DNA from: Desulfobacula sp. | Lineage (GTDB): Bacteria; Desulfobacterota; Desulfobacteria; Desulfobacterales; Desulfobacteraceae | Assembly (NCBI RefSeq): GCF_030611305.1 | Contig: NZ_JAUWQB010000021.1 | Location: 1-46,146, forward strand | Direction of reading: 5' to 3' | Length of the DNA: 46,146 nt | Part shown: positions 18,234-34,575 of the stretch, piece by piece | How the letters are laid out: each line of letters starts with the position of its first letter | How positions within the stretch are numbered: the first letter of the stretch is position 1 | Program-made: the position numbers and the translations under genes | Notes under the pieces: model-generated | What the model saw: only the letters and a program-made list of their open reading frames with translations | What the model was told of the DNA's origin: nothing | Databases searched by the model: none

Positions 18234-19010
18234 ATGAAAGTTATGATATTAGCCGGTGGTTACGGAACCAGACTCAGCGAAGAAACCGATATGTATCCAA
18301 AGCCAATGCTCGAAATCGGTGGTAAACCAATTCTATGGCATATTATGAAAATTTACTCAAAATATGGTTATAATGAATTTATAATTCTACTCGGCTACAA
18401 GGGTTATATGATTAAAGAGTATTTTGCCAACTATTTCCTGCACCAAAGTGATGTAACAATAGATCTTGTAAATAACAAAATCGAAACTCATAATACTAAC
18501 AGTGAACCTTGGAAAGTAACTCTTCTTGATACTGGTCAAGAAACCATGACTGGCGGCAGAATACTTAAGGCTAAAAAAATTATTGGCACAAAGCCATTTA
18601 TGTTAACCTATGGTGATGGAGTTTCTGATATTAACATTACTAAATTGGTTAAATTTCACAAATCACATGGGAAAATAGCAACAGTAACTTCAATAAAACC
18701 AGAAGGTCGCTTTGGGACAATTGCGTCTGATAATTCGGGAGAAATAACAAGTTTTCATGAAAAACCCATTGGTAATAGGAATTGGATTAATGCCGGTTTT
18801 TTTGTTTTAAATCCTGAAATATTCGAGTATCTACGGCATGGAGAAAACACCATATTTGAAAGAGAACCAATTGAAAGGCTGGTTGAAGACAAACAGCTAT
18901 ATTCATATCAACATTCTGGTTTCTGGAAATGCATGGATACTCTTCGAGATAAAAATAATTTGAATAAAATGTGGAATGAGTCCAACGCTCCCTGGAAAAC
19001 ATGGGAATAA
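18234..19010 (+). CDS. rfbF: glucose-1-phosphate cytidylyltransferase
   Basis: 258 aa, full length for RfbF. The nucleotide-binding signature LAGGYGTRLSEET (GGYGTR at residues 8-13) and PKPM (22-25) are present, with the RfbF-specific YGDGVSDINI, ATVTSIKPEGRFGT and SGFWKCMDTLRDKN. The reaction is CTP + glucose-1-phosphate to CDP-glucose + PPi, the entry to CDP-deoxysugars. The ATG is only 8 nt from the end of the IS. The only Shine-Dalgarno-like sequence is AAAGG (18219-18223), inside the IS terminal repeat, so the insertion has replaced the native leader and may now set its translation. Four downstream genes are tightly linked. Confidence 0.95.
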   Translation: MKVMILAGGYGTRLSEETDMYPKPMLEIGGKPILWHIMKIYSKYGYNEFIILLGYKGYMIKEYFANYFLHQSDVTIDLVNNKIETHNTNSEPWKVTLLDTGQETMTGGRILKAKKIIGTKPFMLTYGDGVSDINITKLVKFHKSHGKIATVTSIKPEGRFGTIASDNSGEITSFHEKPIGNRNWINAGFFVLNPEIFEYLRHGENTIFEREPIERLVEDKQLYSYQHSGFWKCMDTLRDKNNLNKMWNESNAPWKTWE

Positions 19011-19013
19011 TTT

Positions 19014-20081
19014 ATGTTTAATGATATTTATTTAAATAAAAAAGTTTTAGTAACTGGGCATACTGGATTTAAAGGCTCATGGTTATCTTTGTGGTTAAAA
19101 TCTATTGGAGCTGAGATTTGTGGCTACAGTCTTGGTCTTCCGACCCGACCAAATCATTATGAATTGCTAAAACTTAATATAAAATCTGTTACTGCAGATA
19201 TTCTCAATAAAGAAAAACTTAAAAAAACTTTTTTAAAATTTCAACCGGAAATAGTTTTTCATCTTGCTGCTCAGCCCCTCGTCAGACGTTCATATCTTGA
19301 ACCTGTTGATACTTTCATGACTAATATTATGGGAACAGTTAATATTCTAGAAACATGCAGAAGTTGCGAATCAGTACAAGCTATTATAAACATCACAAGT
19401 GATAAATGTTATGAAAACAAAGAATGGATTTGGGGATACAGAGAGAGTGATCCCGTTGGCGGACATGATCCATATAGCGCATCAAAAGCTTGTTCCGAAA
19501 TTGTCACCACAGCATATCGGAATTCATTTTATGATAACAAAACCCTCATTGCCACAGCACGAAGTGGAAATGTTATTGGAGGTGGTGACTGGGCTGAAGA
19601 CAGACTGATACCAGATATTGTAAAAGCAAGATCTAATAATAAGCATGTTGAAATTCGTAATCCTCAGGCAACAAGACCTTGGCAACATGTTCTGGAACCA
19701 TTAAGCGGCTATTTGCAACTTGGCCAAAAACTTCTTGAAAAAAACAAAGACTTTGCTGAAGCCTGGAATTTTGGCCCTGCAGACACAGGGAATTTGTCGG
19801 TAGAATATATATTGAATTCTTTAAAAAAACATTTGGATATCAAAGTCAAATTTACAAAAATTAATCCTGATTTACATGAAGCCAATCATTTAAAGCTTGA
19901 CTGCTCAAAAGCACATTCAAAACTCAATTGGAAACCTGTATGGAACAATGAGGAGATGATATCTCACACTGCATTATGGTACAAACAATATTATGAAAAA
20001 AAGTCTGTTCTTTCAACCTCTCAACTTGAAGATTTCACATCAAAAGCAAAAGAAAAAAATTTGGAATGGGCAATAAAATGA
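19014..20081 (+). CDS. rfbG: CDP-glucose 4,6-dehydratase
   Basis: 355 aa, an extended SDR. NAD-binding VTGHTGFKGSW (residues 14-23), the catalytic region TSDKCYENKEW, and YSASKACSE as the Tyr-x3-Lys motif. VIGGGDWAEDRLIPD and RPWQHVLEPLSGYL are hallmarks of RfbG. It converts CDP-glucose to CDP-4-keto-6-deoxyglucose. It starts 3 nt after rfbF and overlaps the next gene. Confidence 0.95.
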   Translation: MFNDIYLNKKVLVTGHTGFKGSWLSLWLKSIGAEICGYSLGLPTRPNHYELLKLNIKSVTADILNKEKLKKTFLKFQPEIVFHLAAQPLVRRSYLEPVDTFMTNIMGTVNILETCRSCESVQAIINITSDKCYENKEWIWGYRESDPVGGHDPYSASKACSEIVTTAYRNSFYDNKTLIATARSGNVIGGGDWAEDRLIPDIVKARSNNKHVEIRNPQATRPWQHVLEPLSGYLQLGQKLLEKNKDFAEAWNFGPADTGNLSVEYILNSLKKHLDIKVKFTKINPDLHEANHLKLDCSKAHSKLNWKPVWNNEEMISHTALWYKQYYEKKSVLSTSQLEDFTSKAKEKNLEWAIK

Positions 20082-20629
20082 TTTTTGACCTACTGCCATT
20101 GAATGATGCTTTTATCATAACCCCTGAAATAAATTTTGATAATCGTGGAGCATTTGGCAGACTATTTTGCAAAGAAGAGTTGAAACAAATATCAACAGGA
20201 TTTGAAATAGTACAAATTAATCATTCCTTTAATAAAAATGTTGGTGCACTTCGAGGAATGCATTTTCAATACCAACCAAAAGCCGAGATTAAAATGGTGA
20301 AATGCATAAAAGGATCTGTTTATGATGTTATTGTTGATATTAGAAAAAACTCATCGACATTTTTAAAATGGTACGGGGTTGAATTGTCTGAAGATAACCA
20401 AAAAATTATATACATCCCCAAAGGATTTGCACATGGATTTCAGGTATTAAAACCAGACAGTCAATTATTATATTTACACTCCGAATATTATTCAGTCGCC
20501 CATGAAGGAACCTTGCGCTATAACGACCCGCGACTGTCGATTGACTGGCCATTACCAGTTTCAAATATTTCAGACCGTGACTCAAAACATCCTCTTATAG
20601 ATAACTCTTTTAAAGGTTTACAAGTATGA
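20078..20629 (+). CDS. NDP-4-keto-6-deoxyhexose 3,5-epimerase (RmlC-like cupin)
   Basis: About 183 aa from the ATG at 20078, which overlaps the rfbG stop as ATGA; an in-frame ATG at 20066 is the alternative. The RmlC cupin motifs are visible: GALRGMHFQ with the catalytic His, KMVKCIKGSVYDVIVDIRK, IPKGFAHGF and YYSVAHEGTLRYNDP with the conserved Tyr and Asp. Given its place between CDP-glucose dehydratase and a sugar C-methyltransferase, the substrate should be CDP-4-keto-6-deoxyglucose rather than the dTDP sugar. Whether it epimerises C3, C5 or both cannot be told. Confidence 0.85.
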   Translation: MIFDLLPLNDAFIITPEINFDNRGAFGRLFCKEELKQISTGFEIVQINHSFNKNVGALRGMHFQYQPKAEIKMVKCIKGSVYDVIVDIRKNSSTFLKWYGVELSEDNQKIIYIPKGFAHGFQVLKPDSQLLYLHSEYYSVAHEGTLRYNDPRLSIDWPLPVSNISDRDSKHPLIDNSFKGLQV

Positions 20630-21852
20630 AATGCAGATTCTGTAAAAATGAAATAAGCCACGTTTTTATAGATTTAGATAAGGCACCTCTTTCAAATTCA
20701 TATTTATCATATAATCAACTGAACGAACCGGAAAAGGACTATCCCCTTAAAGTAATGGTCTGTGAAGAGTGCTGGCTGGTTCAGGTGGATGAATATAAAA
20801 AGTCATCAGAAATATTCAATAATGAATATTTATATTTTTCTTCTTATTCCAGGACGTGGCTGGAGCATGCCAAACAATATACAGATACGATTATTCCCCG
20901 CTTAAAACTCAATTCAAACTCTTTGGTTATTGAAATTGCTTCAAATGACGGATATTTGCTTCAATATTTTAAAGAAAAAGATATCCCATGCCTGGGAGTT
21001 GAACCAGCCGGGAATATTGCTGAAACTGCAAGAAAAAGAGGGATTGAAACCATCACCGATTTTTTTTGCACCAGTCTGGCTACTGAATTAAAAAATAAAA
21101 ATCGAAAAGCAGATCTGATTATTGGGAATAATGTCCTTGCCCATGTACCTGATGTTAATAGTTTCACGCAAGGATTAAAACTGGTCCTGAAGAATAACGG
21201 TGTTATTACTATGGAATTCCCTCACCTTCTACAGCTCGTTGAAAACAACCAATTTGATACAATTTATCATGAGCATTTTTCCTATTTTTCATTTCATACT
21301 GTACAAAATATTTTTTCAGATCATGGACTGGAAATTTTTGATGTCGATGAAATCCCGACCCATGGTGGCTCTTTACGCATTTATGCAAGACATATGCAAA
21401 ATGGCAGTCGCAGTCCATGCGCCTCTGTTACGGCACTTATAGAACAGGAAAAAACCGCTGGCATAAATAAACTTTCCTATTATGAAAACTTTCAACCAAA
21501 AGCTGAACGTGTTAAATATGATCTCCTTGAATTCTTGAAAAATCAAAAAAAATCGGGGCATATGATTGCGGCCTATGGTGCCGCTGCAAAAGGCAATACG
21601 CTTCTTAACTATTGCGGCATAACAAAAGACCTTATCTCTTTCGTTGTCGACGCGTCAGAGCATAAACAGGGTAAATTTTTACCTGGAAGCCATATTCCAA
21701 TTCTGAGCGAAGAGCATATTAAACTATCAAAACCCTCTTTTATGCTTATCCTGCCGTGGAATATTAAAGATGAAATTTTACATCAATTGGCCTATATAAA
21801 AAAGTGGGATGTTCAGTTTATTATTGCGATCCCTCACTTAACGGTATTGTAA
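20626..21852 (+). CDS. NDP-hexose C-methyltransferase (TylC3/TcaB9-type)
   Basis: 408 aa. An N-terminal zinc domain with C3-x2-C6 and C46-x2-C49, a central SAM-binding domain (LVIEIASNDGYLLQYF, about residues 100-115), the TIYHEHFSYFS motif (the Tyr-His-Glu-His set involved in sugar deprotonation in TcaB9-type enzymes), and a C-terminal Rossmann domain (IAAYGAAAKGNTLLNY). This order is diagnostic of sugar C-3 methyltransferases of the TylC3/TcaB9/CloU type, which add a methyl branch next to the 4-keto group. It overlaps the previous gene by 4 nt (ATGA) and abuts the following reductase. Confidence 0.9.
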   Translation: MKCRFCKNEISHVFIDLDKAPLSNSYLSYNQLNEPEKDYPLKVMVCEECWLVQVDEYKKSSEIFNNEYLYFSSYSRTWLEHAKQYTDTIIPRLKLNSNSLVIEIASNDGYLLQYFKEKDIPCLGVEPAGNIAETARKRGIETITDFFCTSLATELKNKNRKADLIIGNNVLAHVPDVNSFTQGLKLVLKNNGVITMEFPHLLQLVENNQFDTIYHEHFSYFSFHTVQNIFSDHGLEIFDVDEIPTHGGSLRIYARHMQNGSRSPCASVTALIEQEKTAGINKLSYYENFQPKAERVKYDLLEFLKNQKKSGHMIAAYGAAAKGNTLLNYCGITKDLISFVVDASEHKQGKFLPGSHIPILSEEHIKLSKPSFMLILPWNIKDEILHQLAYIKKWDVQFIIAIPHLTVL

Positions 21853-22716
21853 ATGAAAAAAATACTAATCACCGGTGCAACTGGATTTGTTGGTCGTAAA
21901 GTAGTTGAGCAATGTCTTCAGTATGATTTTGATATTACTATATGCGGTCTCAATGAAATAAAGTTACATGAAATGGAAAAAGAATTTGGTGTCAAAGCAA
22001 TTGCTTTCGATATTAAAAAAAGCCATAATAATTGGTCTAAATATACTGGCCATCCAGATATTTTGATTCACCTTGCATGGGAAGGATTGACAGATTATAA
22101 AGATCTTATTCATATTGAAACCCAACCATTCACCCATTACCAATTCTTAAAAAGTATGCTTCAAGGTGGCCTGAAAAGTTTGACAGTGGCCGGGACTTGT
22201 TCTGAATATGGCATGCAGGAAGGCTGTCTTTCAGAAGACATGCCTACCTTACCGAACAATTCTTACGGAGTAGGTAAAGACACTCTGAGAAAATTTTTAG
22301 AAGTTTTAGGTAATGAATATAGTTTCAGTTTAAAATGGCTCCGCTACTTCTATATGTATGGGCAAAGACAAAGCCCCACAGCGCTTTTCCCACAACTCAA
22401 AGCCTCGATTAAAAGACAAGATAAAATATTCAATATGTCTGGTGGGGAACAGCTCCGGGATTTTCTACCCGTTGAAACAATTGCTGAATATACTATAAAA
22501 GCAGCAATCCAAGACACTATTAATGGAATCATTAACATCTGTTCCGGAAAACCCATCTCTGTCAAAGAGTTTGTGGAACAAAGAATTATTGAACTACAGT
22601 CAGAGATCAAACTGAACTTAGGCTATTATCCTTATCCTGACTTTGAGCCAATGTCATTTTGGGGAGATAATACCCGTTTACAAAATTTACTAAATCTAAA
22701 GAAAAATAACTATTAA
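21853..22716 (+). CDS. SDR family CDP-4-keto-sugar reductase
   Basis: 287 aa, an extended SDR: GATGFVG at residues 8-14, S117 in TCSEYG and Y138-x3-K142 in YGVGKD. LRYFYMYGQRQSPTALFP and QLRDFLPVETIAEY are usual in NDP-sugar 4-ketoreductases and epimerases. Its start directly follows the methyltransferase stop. As the last step of the five-gene set it would reduce the 4-keto group of the C-methylated CDP-6-deoxyhexose, finishing the activated sugar. Stereochemistry cannot be deduced. A 132-nt gap without an obvious terminator follows. Confidence 0.8.
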   Translation: MKKILITGATGFVGRKVVEQCLQYDFDITICGLNEIKLHEMEKEFGVKAIAFDIKKSHNNWSKYTGHPDILIHLAWEGLTDYKDLIHIETQPFTHYQFLKSMLQGGLKSLTVAGTCSEYGMQEGCLSEDMPTLPNNSYGVGKDTLRKFLEVLGNEYSFSLKWLRYFYMYGQRQSPTALFPQLKASIKRQDKIFNMSGGEQLRDFLPVETIAEYTIKAAIQDTINGIINICSGKPISVKEFVEQRIIELQSEIKLNLGYYPYPDFEPMSFWGDNTRLQNLLNLKKNNY

Positions 22717-22848: not shown

Positions 22849-23865
22849 ATGAAGGCCAAAATAAAACCACGGATCGAACTTGAGAATAGAACAAAATTAG
22901 AAGAAGTCATCCCGATCGAGGTCCCTTTTCTTGTTTTCCTTGATCCATCTGATGTTTGCAACTTTCAATGTAAATTCTGTCCAACTGGGGACAGGGCTTT
23001 GATAAAAAAAATAAAACGGAATTCCTGCCTGATGGATTTTGATTTATTTAAAAAAGTTATTGATGATTTATGTGAATTCAAAAAACCAATAAAAGTATTA
23101 CGTCTTTATAAAGATGGTGAACCGCTTTTAAATCCCAGATTCCCGGATATGGTTAGATACGCGAAAAAAAGCGGATGTGCCTTACAAATTGATACGACCA
23201 CAAATGGCTCTCTTTTAAATCCCAGATTGAATTTAAAAATAATTGAGGCTGGGTTAGATAGAATTCATATTTCTCTGGAAGGACTTTCGCAAGAATCCTA
23301 CAAAGAATTTGCCGGTTATAGAATTAATTTCGAAAAATTTGTTGACAATATCCGCCACTATTATGAGCACAAAAAAGAATGCCTCGTCTGTATAAAAATA
23401 GTCGGTGATAATCTTTCAAAAGAAGCCAAAGGGCATTTTTTTGATATCTTCGGTAATATTTCCGATAGAATATTCGTCGAACATATTGCGCCTTGTTGGC
23501 CACAGTTTGAAATGCATGAAGTTATTCCAAATAGCAATGTTGGTATTTATGGCCAGGAGATAAAGGAGGTAGAAGTCTGCCCCTATATATTTTATTCAAT
23601 AAGTATCAATGCTGACGGAAAAGTCAGCCTGTGTTTTCTGGATTGGGCAAGAGAATTAATTGTGGGTGATGCCAGGGCGGAAAGCATTAAAGACATCTGG
23701 AATAACGAAATTATGTTCAACTATCGAAAAATGCATCTACTTAAAAAGCGTAAGGAACATAAAATTTGTGCCGTTTGTGGGCAATTGTCCCATTGCCTTC
23801 CGGATGACATTGATCCTTTTGCGGAGATGCTTCTCAAGAAACTCAATAATACCCGCAGGGAATAA
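22849..23865 (+). CDS. radical SAM/SPASM protein 1
   Basis: 338 aa. The radical SAM cluster motif C37-x3-C41-x2-C44 sits in SDVCNFQCKFCPTG. SPASM-type auxiliary cysteines lie near the C-terminus: EVCPYIFYSISINADGKVSLCF, then CAVCGQLSHC. Conserved blocks such as TTNGSLLNP and GLDRIHISLEG are typical. AAAGGA is 7 nt before the ATG. It should hold one catalytic and at least one auxiliary Fe-S cluster. The reaction is unknown: within a glycan cluster it might modify a sugar, lipid or peptide. A close paralogue with all three CxxxCxxC cysteines at identical positions is at 26489-27523. Confidence 0.85.
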   Translation: MKAKIKPRIELENRTKLEEVIPIEVPFLVFLDPSDVCNFQCKFCPTGDRALIKKIKRNSCLMDFDLFKKVIDDLCEFKKPIKVLRLYKDGEPLLNPRFPDMVRYAKKSGCALQIDTTTNGSLLNPRLNLKIIEAGLDRIHISLEGLSQESYKEFAGYRINFEKFVDNIRHYYEHKKECLVCIKIVGDNLSKEAKGHFFDIFGNISDRIFVEHIAPCWPQFEMHEVIPNSNVGIYGQEIKEVEVCPYIFYSISINADGKVSLCFLDWARELIVGDARAESIKDIWNNEIMFNYRKMHLLKKRKEHKICAVCGQLSHCLPDDIDPFAEMLLKKLNNTRRE

Positions 23866-23867
23866 TT

Positions 23868-25169
23868 GTGATAAAAATTCTTCATATAACCGCCCATCTT
23901 GGAGGCGGCGTTGGCAAGGCTTTAAGCGGCCTCGTACAACAACCAGCTTCAAAAGAGGTAGAACACACTTTTGTAATCCTGGAGGAGCAGAAAAACCTTC
24001 AATTTATTGATCTAATAAAAAATTGTGGGTGCAGGATTATTATCTGTCCGGTCAATGAACACCTCGTCGAACTGATTGAATCTTCAGATATTGTTCAGTT
24101 AGAATGGTGGAACCATCCTGCTACCATAAAAACTTTATGCAGATGCACTCTCCCGCCGATGAGACTCCTGGTATGGTCCCATGTTTCCGGGTTATTCAAT
24201 CCCAAAATCCCGAGTGGCTTGATTAAAGCTGCACATCGACTCTTATTCACATCACCATGCTCTTTTCAATCCAGAGAAGTCCTTGAATTGCCGTCAAATG
24301 CCTATGACCGGATGGGGGTTGTCTCCAGCAGTGGCGGATTTGATGAATTGCCGAGCCCAGAAGAGGGGAAATATGACTATTTTTCAGTAGGTTATATTGG
24401 AAGCTTTAATTTTTCAAAACTGCATCCCCGATATATTGATTTTTTATCCGCGGTAACAATTCCGGAATTCAAAGTAAAATTGATCGGCGATGTCACTGAT
24501 GAAACTGTTCTTGCAAAACAATGCGAGAAGTCTGACAGACCAAATTTGCTTGAATTCCGGGGTTACACAAATGATATCGCTTCTGAACTGGCTTCAATAA
24601 ATGTCCTTGCCTACTTATTAAATCCAGAGCACTACGGGACAACCGAAAATGCGCTCCTCGAAGCCATGGCCATGGGTATCATACCCATAGTAATGAACAA
24701 CCCGGCCGAACGTCTTATCGTTGATGATCACATAACCGGACTTATCATTAATACACCTGAAGAGTTTGCCGGGGCCATCAACTGGCTGTTTGAATACCCT
24801 GAAAAAAGACAAAAAATTGGAAGACAAGCCTCCAGATCTATACGAGAGCGGTTCACTGCTGAAAAAATGGTCGAGTCTCTCAATTCACATTACACAGCTC
24901 TGCTCTCAATGGAAAAGCAAGCTATTTCATTTACCAGTATATTCGGCAATACTCCGGCTGAATGGTTTCTTTCATGTCAGGGTAATGCAACAAAATTTAC
25001 GGAAAATTCAAAAATATTCCTGTCGCCAGGCACTCTTCCTGATTATTCATTAATGGAACAAACAAAAGGAAGTGTTTTTCATTTTCTACAGCATTTTCCC
25101 GAAAACTCCCTTCTGCAGGCTTGGGGAGCAAAAATTTCTGACTATATTCTTGCCTGTGAAAACACATAA
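23868..25169 (+). CDS. GT4 family glycosyltransferase with C-terminal extension
   Basis: 433 aa from a GTG start 2 nt after the upstream stop (AGGGAA precedes it). N-terminal ILHITAHLGGGVGKALSGL is the GT-B glycine-rich acceptor loop. The GT4 donor site is GTTENALLEAMAMGIIPIV with the E-x7-E motif, followed by VDDHITGLIINTPEEF. Residues beyond about 350 form a tail not typical of GT4 enzymes. It probably transfers a sugar to the growing repeat unit in the cytosol. Tight coupling to the radical SAM gene suggests they act on the same product. Confidence 0.82.
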   Translation: MIKILHITAHLGGGVGKALSGLVQQPASKEVEHTFVILEEQKNLQFIDLIKNCGCRIIICPVNEHLVELIESSDIVQLEWWNHPATIKTLCRCTLPPMRLLVWSHVSGLFNPKIPSGLIKAAHRLLFTSPCSFQSREVLELPSNAYDRMGVVSSSGGFDELPSPEEGKYDYFSVGYIGSFNFSKLHPRYIDFLSAVTIPEFKVKLIGDVTDETVLAKQCEKSDRPNLLEFRGYTNDIASELASINVLAYLLNPEHYGTTENALLEAMAMGIIPIVMNNPAERLIVDDHITGLIINTPEEFAGAINWLFEYPEKRQKIGRQASRSIRERFTAEKMVESLNSHYTALLSMEKQAISFTSIFGNTPAEWFLSCQGNATKFTENSKIFLSPGTLPDYSLMEQTKGSVFHFLQHFPENSLLQAWGAKISDYILACENT

Positions 25170-25270
25170 TATATAATTTCAGATGTCAAAAACACTCTCA
25201 TGGTATAACTTTTCATGTTTTCAAGCATTTGAAAAAGATTTTTCTTGGATATTCATTCAGGTAGCCTTCT

Positions 25271-26470
25271 ATGATATATACTAAACATCGCCAATTTAAC
25301 TTTGCCCCTGACAACTCTGAAGCCCGCCAGCTGCTATCCGTGATCAGCGAGACCAAGGCTTCACCTGTGTCAAGATCGGTTGACCGACCGTTGCTGGCTC
25401 TTTACGGTTGTGGCAATCTCGGCAGAATGGCCCGGAACTACCTGGCTCATTTTGGCTTTAAGCTATCTTTTGCCCTTGACCTAAAAGCCGAGCAGTACCA
25501 ACAGGATCCAGCCTGGCAAGGAGTCTCAGTTCTGCATCCCGATGAGGTTGCTCCTGAACAGAGGAATTCCTGCCTGCTTGCCATTTGCGTGGTTACAAGC
25601 CCCTGCATACCCTTGATTAAAAATCTTCAAACACAGGGATGGTCCGATTGCGTTCCCTTTTACGATATTGCCGAGGCTTATCGGGATCAGCACCCTCTGT
25701 CCAACGGCTGGATTGCGGCTCCTTTTACTGCTGTTGAAATACAGAATATCAGCACCGTTCTCTCAGGTTGGAGTGACAATCTTTCCCGGGCCCACCATCT
25801 CCAGTTTCTATCCTGGCGACGACTAAGGGAGGAATGGTCTTTTACCGACGCACCGGTAACAGCGGATGATCGTTTTTTTATTCCGGAAATTCTATCTATC
25901 CTCAATGATCATGAAACCTTTGCTGACTTCGGAGCCCATACCGGAAGTGTTGCCGAACGTTTTTTGAAAATCAAGAAAGGCAATTTTTCCAGGATCTGGG
26001 CTATTGAACCGGATCAGGCCAATATGGAAAACTTGCGAAAGAAGATTTCCCGAATGACACCCGAAACCAGAAAACGCATCCAGTTAAAACAGACATCGGT
26101 TGGGAGCCACCCAGGTGCAAGCACCTTTTACTATGGATTGGGATATGCCTCCCAGTTGTCTCGTCTTGGGCAGCATAAAATCAAAGTAAACACTATTGAT
26201 GAACTAAAACTTGATCCGAGTTATATTAAACTGCATCTTGAGGGGGCTGAGCTTGATGCCCTCAAGGGTGCGCAAAAAACAATTCTACGCCATCGTCCCA
26301 TTATTACAGCTACGACTTATCATAACGACCTCGGCCTTTGGGAATTACCGCTATGGTTAATGCAAAAAATACCGGATTATCATTTTCTGCTACGGCTGCA
26401 CAGCTGGTGCGGCACCGGCTCGGTTATTTATTGTATACCCAACGAACGCTGGCAGAATCTGAAGATTTAA
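25271..26470 (+). CDS. FkbM family methyltransferase with N-terminal nucleotide-binding domain (1)
   Basis: 399 aa. Residues about 38-135 form a Rossmann-like domain starting LALYGCGNLGRMARNYL, as in PglD-type or dehydrogenase folds. The C-terminal part (about 210-390) is an FkbM SAM-methyltransferase: FADFGAHTGSVAERFLK, IWAIEPDQANMENLRKK and KLHLEGAELDALKGAQKTI. FkbM enzymes usually O-methylate sugars. The first ~600 nt are clearly richer in G+C than the neighbours (35 G/C in the 60 nt at 25321-25380), suggesting separate acquisition. AGGTAG lies 6 nt before the ATG. It is architecturally the same as the protein at 28725-29828. Confidence 0.82.
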   Translation: MIYTKHRQFNFAPDNSEARQLLSVISETKASPVSRSVDRPLLALYGCGNLGRMARNYLAHFGFKLSFALDLKAEQYQQDPAWQGVSVLHPDEVAPEQRNSCLLAICVVTSPCIPLIKNLQTQGWSDCVPFYDIAEAYRDQHPLSNGWIAAPFTAVEIQNISTVLSGWSDNLSRAHHLQFLSWRRLREEWSFTDAPVTADDRFFIPEILSILNDHETFADFGAHTGSVAERFLKIKKGNFSRIWAIEPDQANMENLRKKISRMTPETRKRIQLKQTSVGSHPGASTFYYGLGYASQLSRLGQHKIKVNTIDELKLDPSYIKLHLEGAELDALKGAQKTILRHRPIITATTYHNDLGLWELPLWLMQKIPDYHFLLRLHSWCGTGSVIYCIPNERWQNLKI

Positions 26471-26488
26471 TAAAGGAGTATCAAATAG

Positions 26489-27523
26489 ATGAAAGCGCGT
26501 CTAAAATCAAAATTAAATTTAGAGAAACGGACTCCTCTGCAGGATGTTATCCCTTTGCAAACCCCTTTTCTTCTTTACCTTGATCCTTCCAGTGCCTGCA
26601 ATTTTCGTTGCCAATTCTGCCCGACAGGGCATAAAGATCTGATTGACAAATCAGGATACCGCAGAGGCCCGATGAGCCTTGACCTGTTCGAAAAAACAAT
26701 CCAGGACCTTAGTGAATTTAACCAACCTCTAAAAGTTCTTCGTATGAACAAGGTGGGGGAGCCTTTTCTCAATAAAAATCTCTCTCAAATGGTTGCTTTA
26801 GCAAAAAGGAGCGGTTCTGTAGAATTCATTGATTTGACAACAAACGGTTCTCTATTTTCACCCGAACGATTAAGCCGGCTGCTGGAGGCAGGATTAGATA
26901 GGCTAAATATATCTTTGGAAGGCATGAACCGTGAACAATACCGGCAATATGCAAAAGTTGATTTTGATTTCGATAAATTCGTCAAAAATGTAAAATGGTT
27001 ATATAGCAACAAAGGTAATTGCGAAGTAACAATAAAAATCCCAGGTAATTATATTAATGATGATCAAAAAGAAGAGTTTTTAAATACTTTTGGAAATTAT
27101 TGTGATCGAATCTTTATTGAAGATATAGCCCCGATATGGCCATCTTTTGACATTGAAGCACATTCCGATATCACAATTGGAAAATTAAAAGGACAATATG
27201 AACAATCAGTACACCCAAAAGGCATTTGCTCATATATTTTCTATTCAGCCGTAATTAATTCAGATGGTTCAGTTAGTGCCTGCTGCCCCGACTGGGCCCA
27301 GAAACTAATTGTCGGTAACGTTAAAACAGAATCGTTAAAAAATATCTGGCATTCTTCAAAAATGAACAATTTAAGACGCCAACATCTTGAGGGGAAAAGG
27401 CATGCTAATAATACTTGCAGCGTTTGCGGACACTTGAGTTACTGCCAGGTAGATAACATTGATCCTTTTAGAGAATTACTCTTAAACAAATTTATAACTT
27501 ATGAAAAAGAGTGTTTGGCTTGA
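26489..27523 (+). CDS. radical SAM/SPASM protein 2
   Basis: 344 aa, a paralogue of the protein at 22849. C37-x3-C41-x2-C44 in SACNFRCQFCPTG, TTNGSLFSPERL, LDRLNISLEGMNREQY, and a C-terminal cysteine set GICSYIFYSAVINSDGSVSACC, then CSVCGHLSYC. The extra adjacent Cys (ACC) differs from copy 1. The N-terminal 30 residues, with EKRTPLQDVIPLQTPFLLYLDPS, match copy 1 closely, so both arose by duplication. AAGGAG precedes the ATG. It follows the FkbM gene by 18 nt and overlaps the next methyltransferase by 4 nt if that starts at TTG. Confidence 0.85.
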   Translation: MKARLKSKLNLEKRTPLQDVIPLQTPFLLYLDPSSACNFRCQFCPTGHKDLIDKSGYRRGPMSLDLFEKTIQDLSEFNQPLKVLRMNKVGEPFLNKNLSQMVALAKRSGSVEFIDLTTNGSLFSPERLSRLLEAGLDRLNISLEGMNREQYRQYAKVDFDFDKFVKNVKWLYSNKGNCEVTIKIPGNYINDDQKEEFLNTFGNYCDRIFIEDIAPIWPSFDIEAHSDITIGKLKGQYEQSVHPKGICSYIFYSAVINSDGSVSACCPDWAQKLIVGNVKTESLKNIWHSSKMNNLRRQHLEGKRHANNTCSVCGHLSYCQVDNIDPFRELLLNKFITYEKECLA

Positions 27524-28698
27524 ATACTATTAAATCAAATTATTGTTGTCCGGCGTGTGAAGAAAAAACTCAATTTCTTATTAACTGGGAGTACAGCGGC
27601 CTGAATGATTCGATATTTAACTACATGGCCAAAATTTATGAATGCTTGAACTGCGGATTAGTTTATATTGCAAATATCTCTGCTGAGAGATTATCAGTTT
27701 TCTACAACAAAGAATGTTCTTATTTTGAAAAACCGCATTTCAATATATCCGCTCCGGAAAATATTATAAAATATAAATTTTATAAAGAAATTATTGTCAA
27801 CGCGGGACTGACTGACACACCTGTTACCGATATTGGTTGTGGCCGTGGCGGTTTCCTGCTCTGGCTGAAAAATAATGACTGGAATGGAGACTGTCAGGGA
27901 ATTGATATTGACCTGAAAAGTATTCCCGATACTGGTGTACATACAAATGAACAAAGTATAAAAGTTACTTTTCAGGAGGGGAGAGCGGTTGCCATGCCTT
28001 TTGAAGATGGAACCCAGTCTTTGTTAACATATTTTCATGTACTGGAGCATATATGTAATATCGATAAGGTGTTTAGGGAAGCATTTCGTGTCTTAAATGA
28101 ATCCGGTCACATTATAATTGAAGTCCCTGATGCGGAAAGATACAAAGATTTTCCTGTTGGAACAGCCTTTTGGCTGAGTATTAGAGAACATGTTAATCAT
28201 TTTTCTCCTGACGCTCTATGCAAGGCACTACAAAGAAACGGCTTCGAGGTAATTAGTATCAACCGGGGATTATTGCCAACCCCTGAATTTTCTTATCCTT
28301 CATTAATAGTCTTAGCCCGAAAGGGTAATGTTAAAAGAAAACCTAATATTTCTAAAAAAAATTCTATCGCGTCATTTTTTATTCAATCAAATAAAGATAT
28401 AAAAACTCAGGCGCAAAAAGTCTCAAAATTTTGTTCAAAATTTTCAAGGATGACATTCTGGGGATGCTCGGCTGAATTATTCAGTTTATTGCCAATAATG
28501 AACTTACAGGACTTTACTTTATGTGATTCAAGCAAAATTAAGCAGCAATGCGTATATAAAGGCCTGCCTGTCAATGACCCCGCGGCTGTCAAAAATGCCG
28601 GAGCTTTGATCGTTGCCCCTTATCTACATGGCAGCGCCATTGAAAAGACCGCGATTGAACTAGGCTGGTCCAAAGAAACTATTTTCCGTTTAAGATAA
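27520..28698 (+). CDS. SAM-dependent methyltransferase with zinc-ribbon N-terminus
   Basis: About 392 aa from TTG at 27520 (overlap TTGA with the preceding stop; AAAGAG 8 nt upstream). GTG at 27511 is an alternative. The N-terminus has a zinc-ribbon pattern (C10-x2-C13 and C42-x2-C45). The class I SAM domain has VTDIGCGRGGFLLWL, then LTYFHVLEHI and LNESGHIIIEVPDAERY, then HVNHFSPDALCKAL. The last ~100 residues (FWGCSAELFSLLPIMN, then FTLCDSSKIKQQ) resemble the C-terminal Rossmann domain of sugar C-methyltransferases. It therefore looks like a diverged relative of the enzyme at 20626, without its YHEH motif. Confidence 0.8.
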   Translation: MNTIKSNYCCPACEEKTQFLINWEYSGLNDSIFNYMAKIYECLNCGLVYIANISAERLSVFYNKECSYFEKPHFNISAPENIIKYKFYKEIIVNAGLTDTPVTDIGCGRGGFLLWLKNNDWNGDCQGIDIDLKSIPDTGVHTNEQSIKVTFQEGRAVAMPFEDGTQSLLTYFHVLEHICNIDKVFREAFRVLNESGHIIIEVPDAERYKDFPVGTAFWLSIREHVNHFSPDALCKALQRNGFEVISINRGLLPTPEFSYPSLIVLARKGNVKRKPNISKKNSIASFFIQSNKDIKTQAQKVSKFCSKFSRMTFWGCSAELFSLLPIMNLQDFTLCDSSKIKQQCVYKGLPVNDPAAVKNAGALIVAPYLHGSAIEKTAIELGWSKETIFRLR

Positions 28699-28724
28699 AC
28701 AATTTACCCTGTAGGAAGATGCCT

Positions 28725-29828
28725 ATGAAATACAAGACAGAGGATATTGATTCCCTCGTAAAACAAATGATGCCTTTAGCATCAAAAACAGAGAATGACC
28801 ACAACCGGGGAGTTGCGATTTACGGTGCTGGCTTTGTTGGAACCTGGGCAGCCCAATATCTAAGGTCATCAGGAGCCGCCGTCAAGCATTTTATTGACAG
28901 GGATCCACAAAAAAACGGGACTACAATAAATGGGATTCCGGTAATTTTACCCTCCGACCCCTTAGTAGCCTCATATCCGACTATATATATTGCCGCCCGG
29001 CATGCTGTTAAGGATGTTCAAAAAGCCATGGCGAATAATAATTATAATTTATTATCCTTTGACGGATATTACGTAATTAAAAATTATCAGAAATTTGCCG
29101 ATATCAGAGACAATTATTTTAGTGATGATAAGTCAATAGAAACTTATAACGCGCTTTTACTGGCAATGCTAACCAGTTCCACTAAAAGCTGCCGGACCAT
29201 AATGGAAAAAGATATGTATTTCGGGATTCCGGAATTTAGCGGAACCTTTAATGAAATATTTGTGGATGCCGGAGCCTTCGTAGGAGACTCAATAGAGCGC
29301 TTTATCTGGGAAAATCTTGGAACATTCAAACATATATATGCTTTTGAACCGGGCCACAGACAATTTTTATCTCTACAGCAGAGGATGCTTAGGCTTTCTA
29401 AAGAGTGGGCTTTAGATGACAACTCGGTTACCGCGGTTAACGCAGGCCTGGCAGCTGAGGATGGCCGCATGACTTTTTCCTTTTTATATGATTCACCTCT
29501 TCGTCATGGTTTAACAACTGGAGACCATGGTACCACCAGCAGTGATATAAACAGTATCGAAGTATATTCTTTAGATTCATTTTTAAAAGGTAAACCTGTT
29601 ACATTTATTAAAGCTGATGTTGAAGGCATGGAGATGGACCTTTTGAGAGGGGCACAGGCTACAATACGCCGCAATAAACCCAAAATGGCCCTGTGTGTTT
29701 ATCATTATCCCAGCGACCTGATTGAGGTCGCCGAATTTGTAAAAAACCTGGTACCGGAATATAAATTTCACATAAGACAACACGCGCCGATATTCGGTGA
29801 TTTCGTTTTATATTGCCATTGTGAATAA
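28725..29828 (+). CDS. FkbM family methyltransferase with N-terminal nucleotide-binding domain (2)
   Basis: About 367 aa from the ATG at 28725; AGGAAG is well spaced for it but touches the earlier in-frame ATG (28719). The N-terminal Rossmann-like domain has VAIYGAGFVGTWAAQYL, then FIDRDPQKNG and PTIYIAARHAVKDVQ (a nucleotide- or NAD-type fold). The C-terminal FkbM domain has IFVDAGAFVGDSIERFIW, IYAFEPGHRQFLSLQQ and FIKADVEGMEMDLLRGAQ. It repeats the domain order of the 25271 protein, and each lies next to a SPASM gene. Probably an O-methyltransferase for a glycan residue; the first domain's job is unknown. Confidence 0.82.
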   Translation: MKYKTEDIDSLVKQMMPLASKTENDHNRGVAIYGAGFVGTWAAQYLRSSGAAVKHFIDRDPQKNGTTINGIPVILPSDPLVASYPTIYIAARHAVKDVQKAMANNNYNLLSFDGYYVIKNYQKFADIRDNYFSDDKSIETYNALLLAMLTSSTKSCRTIMEKDMYFGIPEFSGTFNEIFVDAGAFVGDSIERFIWENLGTFKHIYAFEPGHRQFLSLQQRMLRLSKEWALDDNSVTAVNAGLAAEDGRMTFSFLYDSPLRHGLTTGDHGTTSSDINSIEVYSLDSFLKGKPVTFIKADVEGMEMDLLRGAQATIRRNKPKMALCVYHYPSDLIEVAEFVKNLVPEYKFHIRQHAPIFGDFVLYCHCE

Positions 29829-30030: not shown

Positions 30031-30825
30031 ATGATGAAAATCCCCCTGGAACAATATAAACAGGAAATGTCAGAAAGGGTCAGGTCATATAAAACGAATG
30101 CATCACTTCAAACAGCGTCCCAAAATTTCTTTAAAGAGATCGGTATTGGCAAAGCAAATTATGTATATAATTTTTTCTGGCTGGGAGTCCCGATAATTCA
30201 AATACCTCAGGATCTGCAGGCTATGCAGGAAATGATCTGGGAGGCTAAACCCGACCTTATTATTGAAACCGGGATTGCCTGGGGGGGGACTCTGATTCAC
30301 AGTGCTTCCATGCTGGCGATTCTGGAAAGCTGCGGACTTATTGAAAACGGTCATGTTCTAGGCGTTGATATTGACATTCGCCCTCACAACAAAGAAGCCA
30401 TCATTGCCCACCCCTTAAGCAATAAGATTACTATGTTTGAAGGCTCAAGTATCGATGAAAAAATAATTGATAAAGTTCGATTATTTTCAAAGAGTCACAA
30501 AAGAATAATGGTCTTTCTGGATAGTGATCATACTCATGACCATGTTCTTTTTGAATTAGAGGCTTACGCGCCACTTGTTAGTAAGGGAAGCTATTGCATG
30601 GTTGGTGATACAATTATCGAAGACGCACCGGATGGAATGGTTTCAGAACGGCCCTGGTGTAAAGGTAATAATCCCAAAACCGCAGTGTGGGAATTTATCC
30701 GCCGTATAAAGGAAGAAGGACGAAAAGCTGCTGATGGATTAAATCTAAATTTTGAAATCAATAAAGAATTGGAACACAAAATTTTGGTAACAGGTTCACC
30801 TGATGGATTTCTCAAAAGAGTTTAA
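30031..30825 (+). CDS. CmcI-like (cephalosporin hydroxylase family) SAM-dependent methyltransferase
   Basis: 264 aa. The family hallmarks are PDLIIETGIAWGGTLIHSAS (SAM-binding loop), VLGVDIDIRPHN, IMVFLDSDHTHDHVLFELEAYAPLVSKGSY and a DT...DAPDG segment near CMVGDTIIEDAPDGMV. Despite the name, members near polysaccharide genes (for example the rhamnosyl O-methyltransferases of mycobacterial glycolipids) methylate sugar hydroxyls. An O-methyltransferase role is therefore more likely than hydroxylation. GGAGAG precedes two adjacent ATGs (30031 and 30034). Confidence 0.82.
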   Translation: MMKIPLEQYKQEMSERVRSYKTNASLQTASQNFFKEIGIGKANYVYNFFWLGVPIIQIPQDLQAMQEMIWEAKPDLIIETGIAWGGTLIHSASMLAILESCGLIENGHVLGVDIDIRPHNKEAIIAHPLSNKITMFEGSSIDEKIIDKVRLFSKSHKRIMVFLDSDHTHDHVLFELEAYAPLVSKGSYCMVGDTIIEDAPDGMVSERPWCKGNNPKTAVWEFIRRIKEEGRKAADGLNLNFEINKELEHKILVTGSPDGFLKRV

Positions 30826-30907: not shown

Positions 30908-32434
30908 ATGTCTATCATAAAAAATAATATCCGTGCTAATCTCATCGGGAACATCTGGCAGGTTCTTATGGGATTGGCGTTTATCCCTCTTTACATTGGA
31001 TTTATGGGGGTTGAATCCTATGGTCTGATTGGTATTTTCGCTACCATCCAAGGTGTTATTGTCATTTTTGACATCGGGATAAATGCTACCCTGACACGTG
31101 AAATGGCGCGTCTCTCTGCCCATCCAGGTAGTGAACAGGAAATGCGGAATCTGGTCCGTTCCCTGGAGCTAATCTACTGGGGCATGGCCGTTTTGATTGG
31201 AATTGTCATAATAATCATCTCTCCTTTCATTGCACATCACTGGGTAAAAGCCGGTCAACTGGCTCCCCATACTATTGAACAGGCGTTGCGAATAATGGGA
31301 CTTGCCATGGCACTCCAATGGCCGGCTTCTTTTTATACCGGTGGTCTCATCGGACTCCAAAAACAAGTTCTGTTAAATATTATCAATGCCTGCATAAGCA
31401 CTTTTCGGGGCGTTGGCGCAGTCCTGGTGTTATGGTTAATCGCACCAACAATACAGGCTTTCTTTTCATGGCAGATCATAATCAGCATAATAAACACCTT
31501 TGTATTAGCTTTCTTCCTTTGGCGCAGGCTCTCGCGGACTGGAAAAAAAGCAGTTTTTAAAAAACAACTCCTTACTGGCGTTTGGAGATTTGCTGCTGAG
31601 ATGAGTGGAATTGGGATTTTAGCCACCATACTTACTCAACTGGACAAAATAATCCTAAGTAAAATGTTAACCCTGGAAATGTTCGGATACTACACTCTGG
31701 CAGGAGTAATCGCGATGTCTCTTTATCGACTAATAGGGCCTGTATTTACCGCCATATACCCTATCCTTACTCAATTAGTCTCACTCTCAGACCGGGAAGG
31801 ATTAAAACAACTATATCATAAAAGCTGTCAATTTATGTCCGTCCTGATCCTGCCAGTAACTGTAGTGATTGCACTATTTTCATATGAAATCTTGTATATT
31901 TGGACGCAGGACCCGGTGACGGCTGGGGAAACACATGTTTTGGTTAGTTTTCTCATCTGTGGCACAGCTTTTAGCGGACTAATGAATATCCCTTATGCCT
32001 TGCAACTTGCCCATGGATGGACCAGGCCCGGTTTATATATAAATCTAATTTCCACAATTCTGATAGTGCCGCTGATTATTTTTTTGACTGGGCGCTATGG
32101 AGCTATAGGCGGTGCCAGCGCGTGGGTAATTCTCAATTGCGGTTGTTTCCTGATAGCTATTCCAATAATTCATCATCGCCTGCTGCCGCGTGAAAATTGC
32201 CGCTGGTATTGGCAGGATGTATTTTTACCGCTTGCGGCATGTTTATCTACGTCCGGGTTGGGGCGACTATTTATGGGGGACCAAATGTCTCAATTAGCAA
32301 CAATAGTATATTTATCAGCCGTTTCATTCATCACCCTTGCGGTTACTGCATTGTCGACACCAACAACACGGGCATGGCTAATAAAAAACGTGTCTAGAAT
32401 CAAACCAGCAAAAAAAAAAGAACATTGGAAATAG
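30908..32434 (+). CDS. polysaccharide flippase, Wzx/PST family
   Basis: 508 aa with 12-14 hydrophobic helices. It opens NNIRANLIGNIWQVLMGLAFIPLYIGFMGVESYGLIGIFATIQG, with the typical 'lGvesYGligif.....l...fDlGi..tltRe.Ar' pattern of O-antigen flippases. It should export the undecaprenyl-diphosphate-linked repeat unit to the periplasm. No good Shine-Dalgarno site is visible before the ATG. It is the only lipid-linked oligosaccharide exporter recognised in the cluster. A Wzy-type polymerase was not found beside it. Confidence 0.85.
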   Translation: MSIIKNNIRANLIGNIWQVLMGLAFIPLYIGFMGVESYGLIGIFATIQGVIVIFDIGINATLTREMARLSAHPGSEQEMRNLVRSLELIYWGMAVLIGIVIIIISPFIAHHWVKAGQLAPHTIEQALRIMGLAMALQWPASFYTGGLIGLQKQVLLNIINACISTFRGVGAVLVLWLIAPTIQAFFSWQIIISIINTFVLAFFLWRRLSRTGKKAVFKKQLLTGVWRFAAEMSGIGILATILTQLDKIILSKMLTLEMFGYYTLAGVIAMSLYRLIGPVFTAIYPILTQLVSLSDREGLKQLYHKSCQFMSVLILPVTVVIALFSYEILYIWTQDPVTAGETHVLVSFLICGTAFSGLMNIPYALQLAHGWTRPGLYINLISTILIVPLIIFLTGRYGAIGGASAWVILNCGCFLIAIPIIHHRLLPRENCRWYWQDVFLPLAACLSTSGLGRLFMGDQMSQLATIVYLSAVSFITLAVTALSTPTTRAWLIKNVSRIKPAKKKEHWK

Positions 32435-33867: not shown

Positions 33868-34575
33868 ATGCTTAAAAAAATTGAAATTAAGGATAAAATT
33901 AAACAATTTTTATACCGGATAGGAATTGATGTTGACGATTTCAGGTCAATCATGAAATTGATGGAATATCATAGGATAAATCTGGTTCTTGATGTCGGTG
34001 CATCCATCGGCTTATATGGGGAAAATTTAAGAAAACGTGGATACCGGGGACGGATAGTTTCTTTTGAGCCGATGTCCACACCTTTTGCAGCCCTGGCAAA
34101 AAGAGCCCTGCCTGATAAAAACTGGGATGTCGAGAAGTTTGGATTAGGAGATGAGGATGGCAAAAAAATTATAAACATTGCCACAAATTCTGATAGCAGT
34201 TCAATATTATCAATGCTGCCAAAACATGTTCAGGCAGTTCCTTCAATAAAATTTATTGGACAGGAAGAAATTACAATTCGTTGTCTGGATTCAATTTTTG
34301 AAGACTATTCAAATTCCAGCCGGGCAATGCTCAAATTAGATGTTCAAGGATTTGAAAAATATGTCCTGAAAGGTGCCGAAAAATCATTGCCTAAAATTAA
34401 GGGCCTCCAACTGGAAATGTCACTACAGCCTCTATATCAATCTGAAAAACTATTTTATGAAATGCTTCCCTTTATTTTGGATCAGGGTTTCAAATTAATG
34501 TCCTTAAAGCCGGGCTTCTATGATCCCTCTTCAGGACAATTATTACAAGTTGACGGAATCTTTTACAGGGAATAA
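33868..34575 (+). CDS. FkbM family methyltransferase (single-domain)
   Basis: 235 aa. LVLDVGASIGLYGENLRKRGYRGRIVSFEPM is the SAM-binding region. MLKLDVQGFEKYVLKGAEKSLPKIKGLQLEMS is the FkbM core. It lacks the N-terminal Rossmann domain of the two longer FkbM proteins upstream. A likely sugar O-methyltransferase. AAAGGA is 5 nt before the ATG. Confidence 0.85.
   Translation: MLKKIEIKDKIKQFLYRIGIDVDDFRSIMKLMEYHRINLVLDVGASIGLYGENLRKRGYRGRIVSFEPMSTPFAALAKRALPDKNWDVEKFGLGDEDGKKIINIATNSDSSSILSMLPKHVQAVPSIKFIGQEEITIRCLDSIFEDYSNSSRAMLKLDVQGFEKYVLKGAEKSLPKIKGLQLEMSLQPLYQSEKLFYEMLPFILDQGFKLMSLKPGFYDPSSGQLLQVDGIFYRE

Follow-up and report, generated by a model that had tools for sequence, protein, structure and literature searches.

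The radical SAM pair and its locus

The window analysed here is a 46,146-nucleotide (nt) stretch of Desulfobacula sp. DNA (contig NZ_JAUWQB010000021.1, positions 1 to 46,146), and it carries a glycan locus in which two radical S-adenosylmethionine (SAM) enzymes, rSAM1 and rSAM2, are interspersed with a GT4 glycosyltransferase (GT4a), two FkbM methyltransferases (FkbM1 and FkbM2) and a zinc-ribbon methyltransferase (MT23). The six open reading frames (ORFs) are intact at the positions read in the first-pass annotation of this DNA, apart from the start of FkbM2, where 28725 is the second ATG of an ORF that opens at 28719. From RfbF at 18234 through to Wzx the genes lie on the plus strand, in the order RfbF-RfbG-RfbC-CMT-NDR-rSAM1-GT4a-FkbM1-rSAM2-MT23-FkbM2-CmcI-Wzx (Table 1), and the tight junctions reported by that annotation are indeed found, with 2 nt between rSAM1 and GT4a, 18 nt between FkbM1 and rSAM2 and a 13-nt overlap between rSAM2 and MT23; the GT4a/FkbM1 and MT23/FkbM2 junctions measure 101 nt and 20 nt. 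The module is real and conserved, and rSAM1 and rSAM2, judged by sequence and, for rSAM1, by predicted fold, point to a little-studied cell-surface sugar chemistry for which we infer a candidate reaction below.

Both radical SAM proteins match PF04055 and PF13186, are 48% identical to each other and have in common Cys37/41/44 and the layout of their C-terminal cysteines, as the first reading had seen. It had also called them SPASM enzymes. SPASM enzymes carry a seven-Cys motif, which neither rSAM1 nor rSAM2 has, as only four auxiliary cysteines are conserved among 155 homologues, and the label therefore needs correcting. The review PMC9012708 gives SPASM enzymes two auxiliary clusters, whereas it classes BtrN among the twitch enzymes, with a single auxiliary cluster held by four Cys, and ascribes to it a two-electron oxidation. 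Residues 245-320 of rSAM2 align without gaps to residues 167-242 of BtrN (phmmer), so that C247/C265/C310/C313 of rSAM2 (C244/C262/C307/C310 of rSAM1) fall on C169/C187/C232/C235 of BtrN, with numbering taken from the alignment. Together with Cys37, 41 and 44, the cysteines at 247, 265, 310 and 313 (rSAM2 numbering) are invariant in 155/155 homologues, and this shared pattern is thus not due to chance; besides the two window proteins, the alignment draws on 121 of the 169 loci examined, each row being a complete ORF longer than 280 aa, CxxxCxxC having been demanded by one of the two search patterns and the four auxiliary cysteines left unconstrained. A further cysteine, Cys319 in rSAM2 numbering, is present in 53/155 sequences, and the fifth Cys, residue 316 in rSAM1, in 49/95 of the rSAM1 group defined below. 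By the ligand spacing of both and the modelled fold of rSAM1, rSAM1 and rSAM2 are BtrN-type twitch radical SAM proteins and not seven-Cys SPASM enzymes.

Structure prediction, proposed earlier as a check, gave an AF2 model of rSAM1 with pLDDT 93.2 and pTM 0.92 (44-row alignment), whose best Foldseek match is BtrN (3.0e-13). Superposition on BtrN 4m7t (VIA) gave a Z of 23.2 and a root-mean-square deviation of 2.7 over 240 aligned residues, followed by DesII (21.3), SuiB (20.3), BlsE (19.3) and SkfB (19.0), with lower values for MoaA (18.2), EpeE (16.5) and SpeY (14.4). A profile search also placed BtrN first (4.8e-28), ahead of MoaA (2e-17), the sactipeptide enzyme 5wgg (4.4e-11) and DesII (8.6e-11). 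BtrN stands out, and peptide enzymes share the second rank with sugar enzymes. BtrN, the 2-deoxy-scyllo-inosamine (cyclitol) dehydrogenase of butirosin (PDB 4m7s/4m7t), is the closest match in both sequence and structure, with the same CxxxCxxC and the four auxiliary cysteines in identical spacing, but it is shorter (246 residues in the structure, with ~50 fewer between the two matched stretches) and belongs to an antibiotic pathway, whereas rSAM1 and rSAM2 lie in a surface-glycan locus.

Sugar-acting twitch radical-SAM enzymes are known from a few antibiotic pathways, namely BtrN, NeoN, HygY and SpeY. The sequence and model data support the view that the rSAM family is a variant of these enzymes in a surface-glycan setting. 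Of the NCBIfam radical-SAM models, taken as the best 25 of 49 and the best 25 of 58 for the two proteins, none reaches its cut-off, the top model, TIGR04317, scoring 82 and 88 bits against a cut-off of 380, and no description of the function of these enzymes was found in open-licence PMC text or NCBIfam.

Table 1. Genes of the locus and its flanks, with the family assignment on which each label is based.
Feature	Position	Strand	Evidence
IS5 family transposase, directly upstream of the CDP-sugar cassette	16963..18045	-	NF033581 161.9 bits, cut-off 140
RfbF, glucose-1-phosphate cytidylyltransferase	18234..19010	+	TIGR02623 392.9 bits, cut-off 300.25
RfbG, CDP-glucose 4,6-dehydratase	19014..20081	+	TIGR02622 491.3 bits, cut-off 278.45
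RfbC/RmlC-type sugar epimerase	20066..20629	+	TIGR01221 166.4 bits, cut-off 155.75
CMT, zinc-binding C-methyltransferase	20626..21852	+	PF08421 + PF13489 + PF08484 (4.2e-63)
NDR, NAD-dependent epimerase/dehydratase family, probable sugar reductase	21853..22716	+	PF01370 6.3e-24
rSAM1, predicted twitch (BtrN-like) radical SAM enzyme with extra invariant Cys216, 338 aa	22849..23865	+	PF04055/PF13186
GT4a glycosyltransferase, most constant partner of the rSAM family	23868..25169	+	PF00534 3.5e-16
FkbM1, Rossmann-like domain + FkbM methyltransferase	25271..26470	+	TIGR01444 47.9 bits, cut-off 37.7
rSAM2, predicted twitch (BtrN-like) radical SAM enzyme, of a clade distinct from rSAM1 and with Ile where rSAM1 has Cys216, 344 aa	26489..27523	+	PF04055/PF13186
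MT23, zinc-ribbon methyltransferase with C-terminal PF08484-like domain	27511..28698	+	PF13489 3.9e-20
FkbM2, Rossmann-like domain + FkbM methyltransferase	28719..29828	+	TIGR01444 59.5 bits, cut-off 37.7
CmcI/rhamnosyl O-methyltransferase family protein	30031..30825	+	PF04989 2e-80
Wzx-like polysaccharide flippase	30908..32434	+	PF01943 4.6e-17
Third FkbM methyltransferase, single-domain, downstream in the same glycan locus	33868..34575		TIGR01444 76.1 bits

Two clades and a variable cysteine

The pair had been described as a duplicated module. In a quick maximum-likelihood tree of 120 rows (the 155 filtered at 80% identity) with SH-aLRT supports, rSAM2 forms a clade (support 99) with three genes of pBHWA1, a plasmid of Brachyspira hyodysenteriae, and the second gene of L149, a locus from Planctomycetota, apart from the large rSAM1 group, which is held by a fork at 89. 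Since rSAM1 and rSAM2 lie in different clades, both of them old, the pair in the window does not stem from a recent local duplication, and that explanation was rejected. A further set of ten rows, clade A, sits inside the rSAM1 group (support 100), and each of its members shares a locus with an rSAM1-group gene. More than one rSAM paralogue is present in 21 of the 80 loci described below, and pBHWA1 has five in a row.

Residue 216 follows these clades. It is Cys in 95/95 sequences of the rSAM1 group, taken here as all rows that reach 48% identity to rSAM1 and belong to neither partner clade (the 48% line is our own choice), Ala in 10/10 of clade A and Ile or Val in 5/5 of the rSAM2 clade; the 45 other rows have Cys in four, three of which are viral-contig relatives. 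The epimerases NeoN and HygY and the dehydrogenase SpeY are radical SAM enzymes of aminoglycoside pathways. According to PMC10991966, Cys249 of NeoN is the hydrogen-atom donor, and a title in its reference list states that mutation of one Cys revealed dehydrogenase activity in HygY. Cys216 of rSAM1 recalls this single cysteine, acting as hydrogen donor in NeoN or as a switch between epimerase and dehydrogenase in HygY, and from the residue-216 pattern and this precedent we infer by analogy that rSAM1 would be epimerase-like and rSAM2 oxidase-like. The likeness has its bounds, as SpeY is a weaker fold match to rSAM1 (Z 14.4), and NeoN, HygY and SpeY belong to secondary metabolism, in contrast to the glycan locus here. 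If the analogy holds, residue 216 offers a simple, testable rule for predicting the reaction of a family member.

Neighbourhoods in genomes, phages and a plasmid

To describe the surroundings of the family, we used the best 80 of at least 406 confirmed relatives, picked by rSAM sequence in an alignment scan of genome contigs; the sample leans to the rSAM1 type and 33/80 loci are from Pseudomonadota, the whole spanning 16 phylum names, one archaeon included, with ten loci lacking a phylum name. Partner genes were labelled by tblastn of the window proteins against the loci. GT4a was found in 71/80, each at 113 bits or more and 31 of them at 35% identity or above, and FkbM1 or FkbM2 in 54/80 (47 at ≥35% identity), followed by RfbC (59/80), NDR (43/80), CmcI (31/80), CMT (26/80) and MT23 (22/80), while RfbF or RfbG at 80 bits or more was present in 52/80. 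In 68/80 loci a labelled methyltransferase is found at a distance of 6 kb or less, and each of the 80 contains one or more labelled genes of the sugar, glycosyltransferase or methyltransferase kind, as against 3 of 13 control loci from the window's phylum. The full control set, 61 loci around distant radical-SAM genes that were not taxon-matched, consists of these 13, two of which span just 4-5 kb, together with 48 viral loci, and contains GT4a in 0/61, FkbM1/2 in 0/61 and RfbF/RfbG at 80 bits in 2/61; at any score passing the cut, RfbF occurs in 4, RfbG in 1, MT23 in 1 and UXS in 7. The difference for GT4a corresponds to a Fisher P of 1.2e-30 against the pooled controls and 1.9e-10 against the 13 alone, for loci that are not phylogenetically independent. 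Set aside before this comparison were six viral loci of middle identity (L161-L166), which have no GT4a, no FkbM and RfbG in one, and the ten loci L047-L056. The co-occurrence anticipated from the window alone is borne out, and solitary rSAM genes, or rSAM genes flanked by a precursor peptide, which the first reading had named as its refutation, are not the pattern in the 80 loci, a result that for small ORFs covers the window only.

The nearest labelled downstream gene on the same strand is GT4a in 35/79 loci, FkbM or MT23 in 22/79, a B12-type radical SAM gene in 7/79 and another rSAM of the family in 6/79, a count that leaves out locus L093 for want of a complete anchor ORF; the GT4a scored as next in L092 and L120 is 1.7 kb away, and an uncalled gene was probably skipped there. 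Strands and gene order vary between taxa across the 80 loci, and hence the link between rSAM and its partners is not simply that of one inherited block. In the window's phylum the family is rare and scattered (22/395 genomes at 1e-30), and RfbG exceeds its cut-off in 8/8 genomes with an rSAM match at E≤1e-45 versus 63/395 overall, where the 1e-45 line was set after the list was seen; at the search's own 1e-30 the figure is 9/22 (P 0.003), and with the window's own genome excluded the two become 7/7 (P 1.8e-6) and 8/21 (P 0.009).

The sugar genes around this core are less constant. CMT (26 loci) and a DegT-type enzyme (18 loci) largely replace each other, both being present in 1/80, and a thiamine-diphosphate enzyme family, of which one member was scanned, occurs in 6/80. 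A single fixed CDP-sugar substrate is therefore doubtful, and the variation of the CDP-sugar while rSAM and GT4a stay favours a target in the glycan, or else in some portion of the sugar that every variant has. Among unlabelled neighbours, the most frequent is a B12-binding radical-SAM family, with 31 genes in 27/80 loci (PF02310 and PF04055 on the two that were scanned). It directly follows rSAM in seven loci, four of them from Nitrospira, and in two Dechloromonas loci it lies one gene further on.

Among viral contigs (IMG/VR), an rSAM of at least 45% identity is present in 12/66 loci, of which ten have GT4a and eight MT23. In L156 (1205-12081) head-tail adaptor, neck and tail-terminator genes, and in L158 (598-12080) a virion structural gene, lie in the same stretch as an rSAM (Cys216)-MT23-GT4a cassette, and no RfbF, RfbG or RfbC was found in the stretch examined of either, which suggests a minimal unit of rSAM, methyltransferase and GT4a. 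L154 and L155 add a B12-radical SAM gene; that of L154 (10149-12623) is split by an intein-splicing domain with an HNH nuclease. In L159, L160 and L155 the proteins scanned included none that is clearly a phage structural component.

On pBHWA1 the order is RfbF, a radical SAM gene, RfbC, NDR, a glycosyltransferase and five rSAM genes, corresponding to genes 18 to 9 of La et al. 2014 (PMC4267127). This block shares with the window an rSAM1-type protein (57%), a GT4a homologue (28%), NDR (28%), RfbC (45%) and RfbF (53%) and also has three rSAM2-clade copies, with no FkbM, RfbG or MT23 match within the 19 kb examined. With genes assigned through their order instead of their locus tags, the rSAM1-type protein with Cys216 corresponds to gene 13, and the rSAM2-clade members to genes 9, 11 and 12. 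The radical SAM gene between rfbF and rfbC (L047, 832-1935) occupies the place that RfbG has in other loci and gave no BLAST match to rSAM1 or rSAM2. According to PMC4267127, genes 13-16 are present in 6/6 virulent strains tested and in 0/8 strains of reduced pathogenic potential, genes 11-12 are also absent from one virulent strain, and of four further low-potential strains two have the genes and one is without radical SAM genes only; the evidence there is a strain correlation, with no biochemistry, and gene inactivation is stated not to have been possible.

The methyltransferases are themselves related. FkbM1 and FkbM2 both have a YGxGxxG segment N-terminal to the FkbM domain and MT23 begins with CxxC...CxxC, as first described, and the GT4 and zinc-ribbon genes named there are likewise present. 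The additional domain is, however, not special to the FkbM pair, being related to the C-terminal domain of both zinc-ribbon methyltransferases. Comparison of sub-alignments with hhalign, whose probabilities are pairwise and not database-scaled, gave 97.7 for FkbM1 N/FkbM2 N, 93.2 for FkbM1 N/MT23 C, 97.7 for FkbM2 N/MT23 C, 93.2 for FkbM2 N/CMT C and 95.8 for CMT C/MT23 C, with only 35.8 for the direct FkbM1 N/CMT C pair. From these alignments the four enzymes FkbM1, FkbM2, MT23 and CMT appear to share one PF08484-like, Rossmann-like module, placed on the N side of the catalytic domain in the FkbM proteins and on the C side in MT23 and CMT, and it may have a common role in substrate recognition. 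An FkbM chain of similar length is, moreover, already solved: residues 116-366 of FkbM2 match PDB 2py6 (409 residues) at 6.9e-23, and, judged by length, 2py6 and FkbM2 likely have the N-domain in common, the first 163 residues of 2py6 being unmatched by sequence. The C-terminal ends of the B12-radical SAM proteins served as a negative control, and the shared domain was not found in the 31 neighbours of that family (hhalign 0.4-7.2%). A B12-radical SAM relative in L054 (11088-12944) has a C-terminal PF08484 match of 1.1e-4, just under the cut-off.

Proposed reactions and competing explanations

We propose, with a probability of roughly 45%, that these genes form a glycan-tailoring module within a surface-polysaccharide locus, in which the twitch rSAM enzymes epimerise or oxidise sugar carbons in concert with GT4a and with methylation. 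RfbF, RfbG and RfbC exceed NCBIfam equivalog cut-offs, so that the sugar branch is derived from CDP-glucose, and on general pathway knowledge we take the product of these three with CMT and the reductase to be a branched CDP-6-deoxyhexose. This activated sugar would be made by the upstream genes, and the 5'-deoxyadenosyl radical of rSAM1 or rSAM2 would abstract a hydrogen from a sugar C-H, either on the CDP-sugar or, more likely, on the glycan built by GT4a. In rSAM1 the carbon radical could then take a hydrogen from Cys216 to give the epimer, while in rSAM2, which is without Cys216, the electron may exit through the auxiliary [4Fe-4S] cluster to leave a ketone, as in BtrN. FkbM1, MT23, FkbM2 and CmcI would then methylate hydroxyls, although MT23 might instead act on a carbon next to the newly formed ketone, and Wzx would export the unit. 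Context and fold speak for a radical step on a sugar, and the first-pass suggestion of such a step followed by methylation has gained from the neighbourhoods, the fold and the ligand spacing. The analysis itself shows gene content, cluster ligands, a predicted fold, clades and a conserved co-occurrence, and the substrate, the point of action, the division between epimerase and dehydrogenase and the order of steps are put forward as a working scheme.

Several observations weigh against this scheme. In fold, the peptide enzyme SuiB outranks the sugar enzymes BlsE and SpeY, and by profile the sactipeptide enzyme 5wgg stands above DesII. Cys216 lies five residues past the last barrel strand (207-211, AF2 model) and is likened to the HygY and NeoN cysteines by analogy, and a pBHZ526 protein (L049), a long branch within the rSAM1 group of the tree, carries Ile at 216. 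The GT4a matches are below 35% identity in 40/71 cases, 28/80 loci are without RfbF/RfbG at 80 bits, some of them being short contigs, and the sugar cassettes differ between loci, as seen with CMT and DegT.

An alternative that we regard as unlikely, though it deserves weight, is that both rSAM enzymes act on the CDP-sugar before transfer, as redox-neutral, DesII-like eliminases or mutases or as nucleotide-sugar oxidases, the locus then being a variant deoxysugar pathway and not one of glycan tailoring. NDR is the nearest labelled upstream gene in 34/74 loci and likewise in the window, DesII is the second-best fold match, and the structures of BlsE and of CTP-bound viperin match as well; GT4a is, however, a more constant partner than RfbF or RfbG (71/80 against 52/80), the branch genes change while rSAM stays, the rSAM1-type, MT23 and GT4a genes of the phage loci L156 and L158 come without RfbF, RfbG or RfbC in the stretch examined, and the DesII model TIGR04426 gives rSAM1 40.1 bits against a cut-off of 450. 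Rather improbable, in our estimate, is a scheme in which the ketone formed by rSAM2 enables C-methylation of the adjacent carbon by MT23, so that rSAM2-MT23-FkbM2 would be a second maker of a branched sugar beside rSAM1-GT4a-FkbM1 as the first. The recurrence of rSAM2-MT23-FkbM2 in the Planctomycetota locus L149 (53, 44 and 58% identity) would fit, as would the zinc ribbon of MT23, the C-domain that it shares with CMT and the MT23-type gene directly after rSAM in 9/79 loci, but a Cys216-type rSAM is present in every one of the 22 MT23 loci, whereas an rSAM2-clade member occurs in just one of them (L149), pBHWA1 combines three rSAM2-clade copies with no MT23 match in its 19 kb, and the phylum of L149 held no further rSAM2 locus at E≤1e-70, the single match among 392 genomes being the query's own.

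That the two proteins mature a peptide, as SPASM enzymes of the type found with ribosomally synthesised and post-translationally modified peptides, and lie among glycan genes by chance or act on a glycopeptide, we hold to be very improbable in view of the cluster ligands and the neighbourhoods. The Pfam PF13186 'SPASM' assignment of both proteins and the presence of SuiB, SkfB and ChlB among the fold matches speak for it. The seven-Cys motif is, on the other hand, replaced by four auxiliary cysteines throughout the 155 sequences, the sugar, glycosyltransferase or methyltransferase context holds in 80/80 loci, the NCBIfam peptide-maturase models among the 25 best of 49 and the 25 best of 58 all stay below their cut-offs, and the two longer gaps of the window, NDR-rSAM1 and GT4a-FkbM1, are free of plus-strand ORFs of at least 20 aa (in the related loci, the screen covered ORFs above 100-120 aa).

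Returning to glycan tailoring, a broader and more tentative proposal, to which we give somewhat less than even odds, is that the two rSAM enzymes belong to a widespread, apparently undescribed class of glycan-tailoring twitch radical-SAM enzymes, in which Cys216-type epimerases and Cys-less oxidases, deployed as sets next to a single GT4 family, would rewrite stereocentres or oxidation states in finished surface glycans (virion or host glycans in the case of phages) across 16 or more bacterial and archaeal phyla, with FkbM, C-methyltransferase and MT23 partners that share one substrate-recognition domain. If so, the same chemistry would be a scattered but widespread, unstudied part of cell-surface glycan assembly, in which unactivated sugar carbons are inverted or oxidised late in assembly. 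The family reaches phage contigs, where it occurs in the same stretch as tail-connector genes, and it includes the plasmid block whose presence is correlated with the pathogenic potential of isolates from swine dysentery and to which PMC4267127 had assigned no settled role in 2014.

As to the origin of the locus, the IS5 family transposase beside the CDP-sugar cassette is a possible sign of mobility. The G+C content is 0.435 at 24001-26000, around GT4a and FkbM1, as against 0.34-0.36 across the 6 kb upstream, a rise that hints at a mosaic origin.

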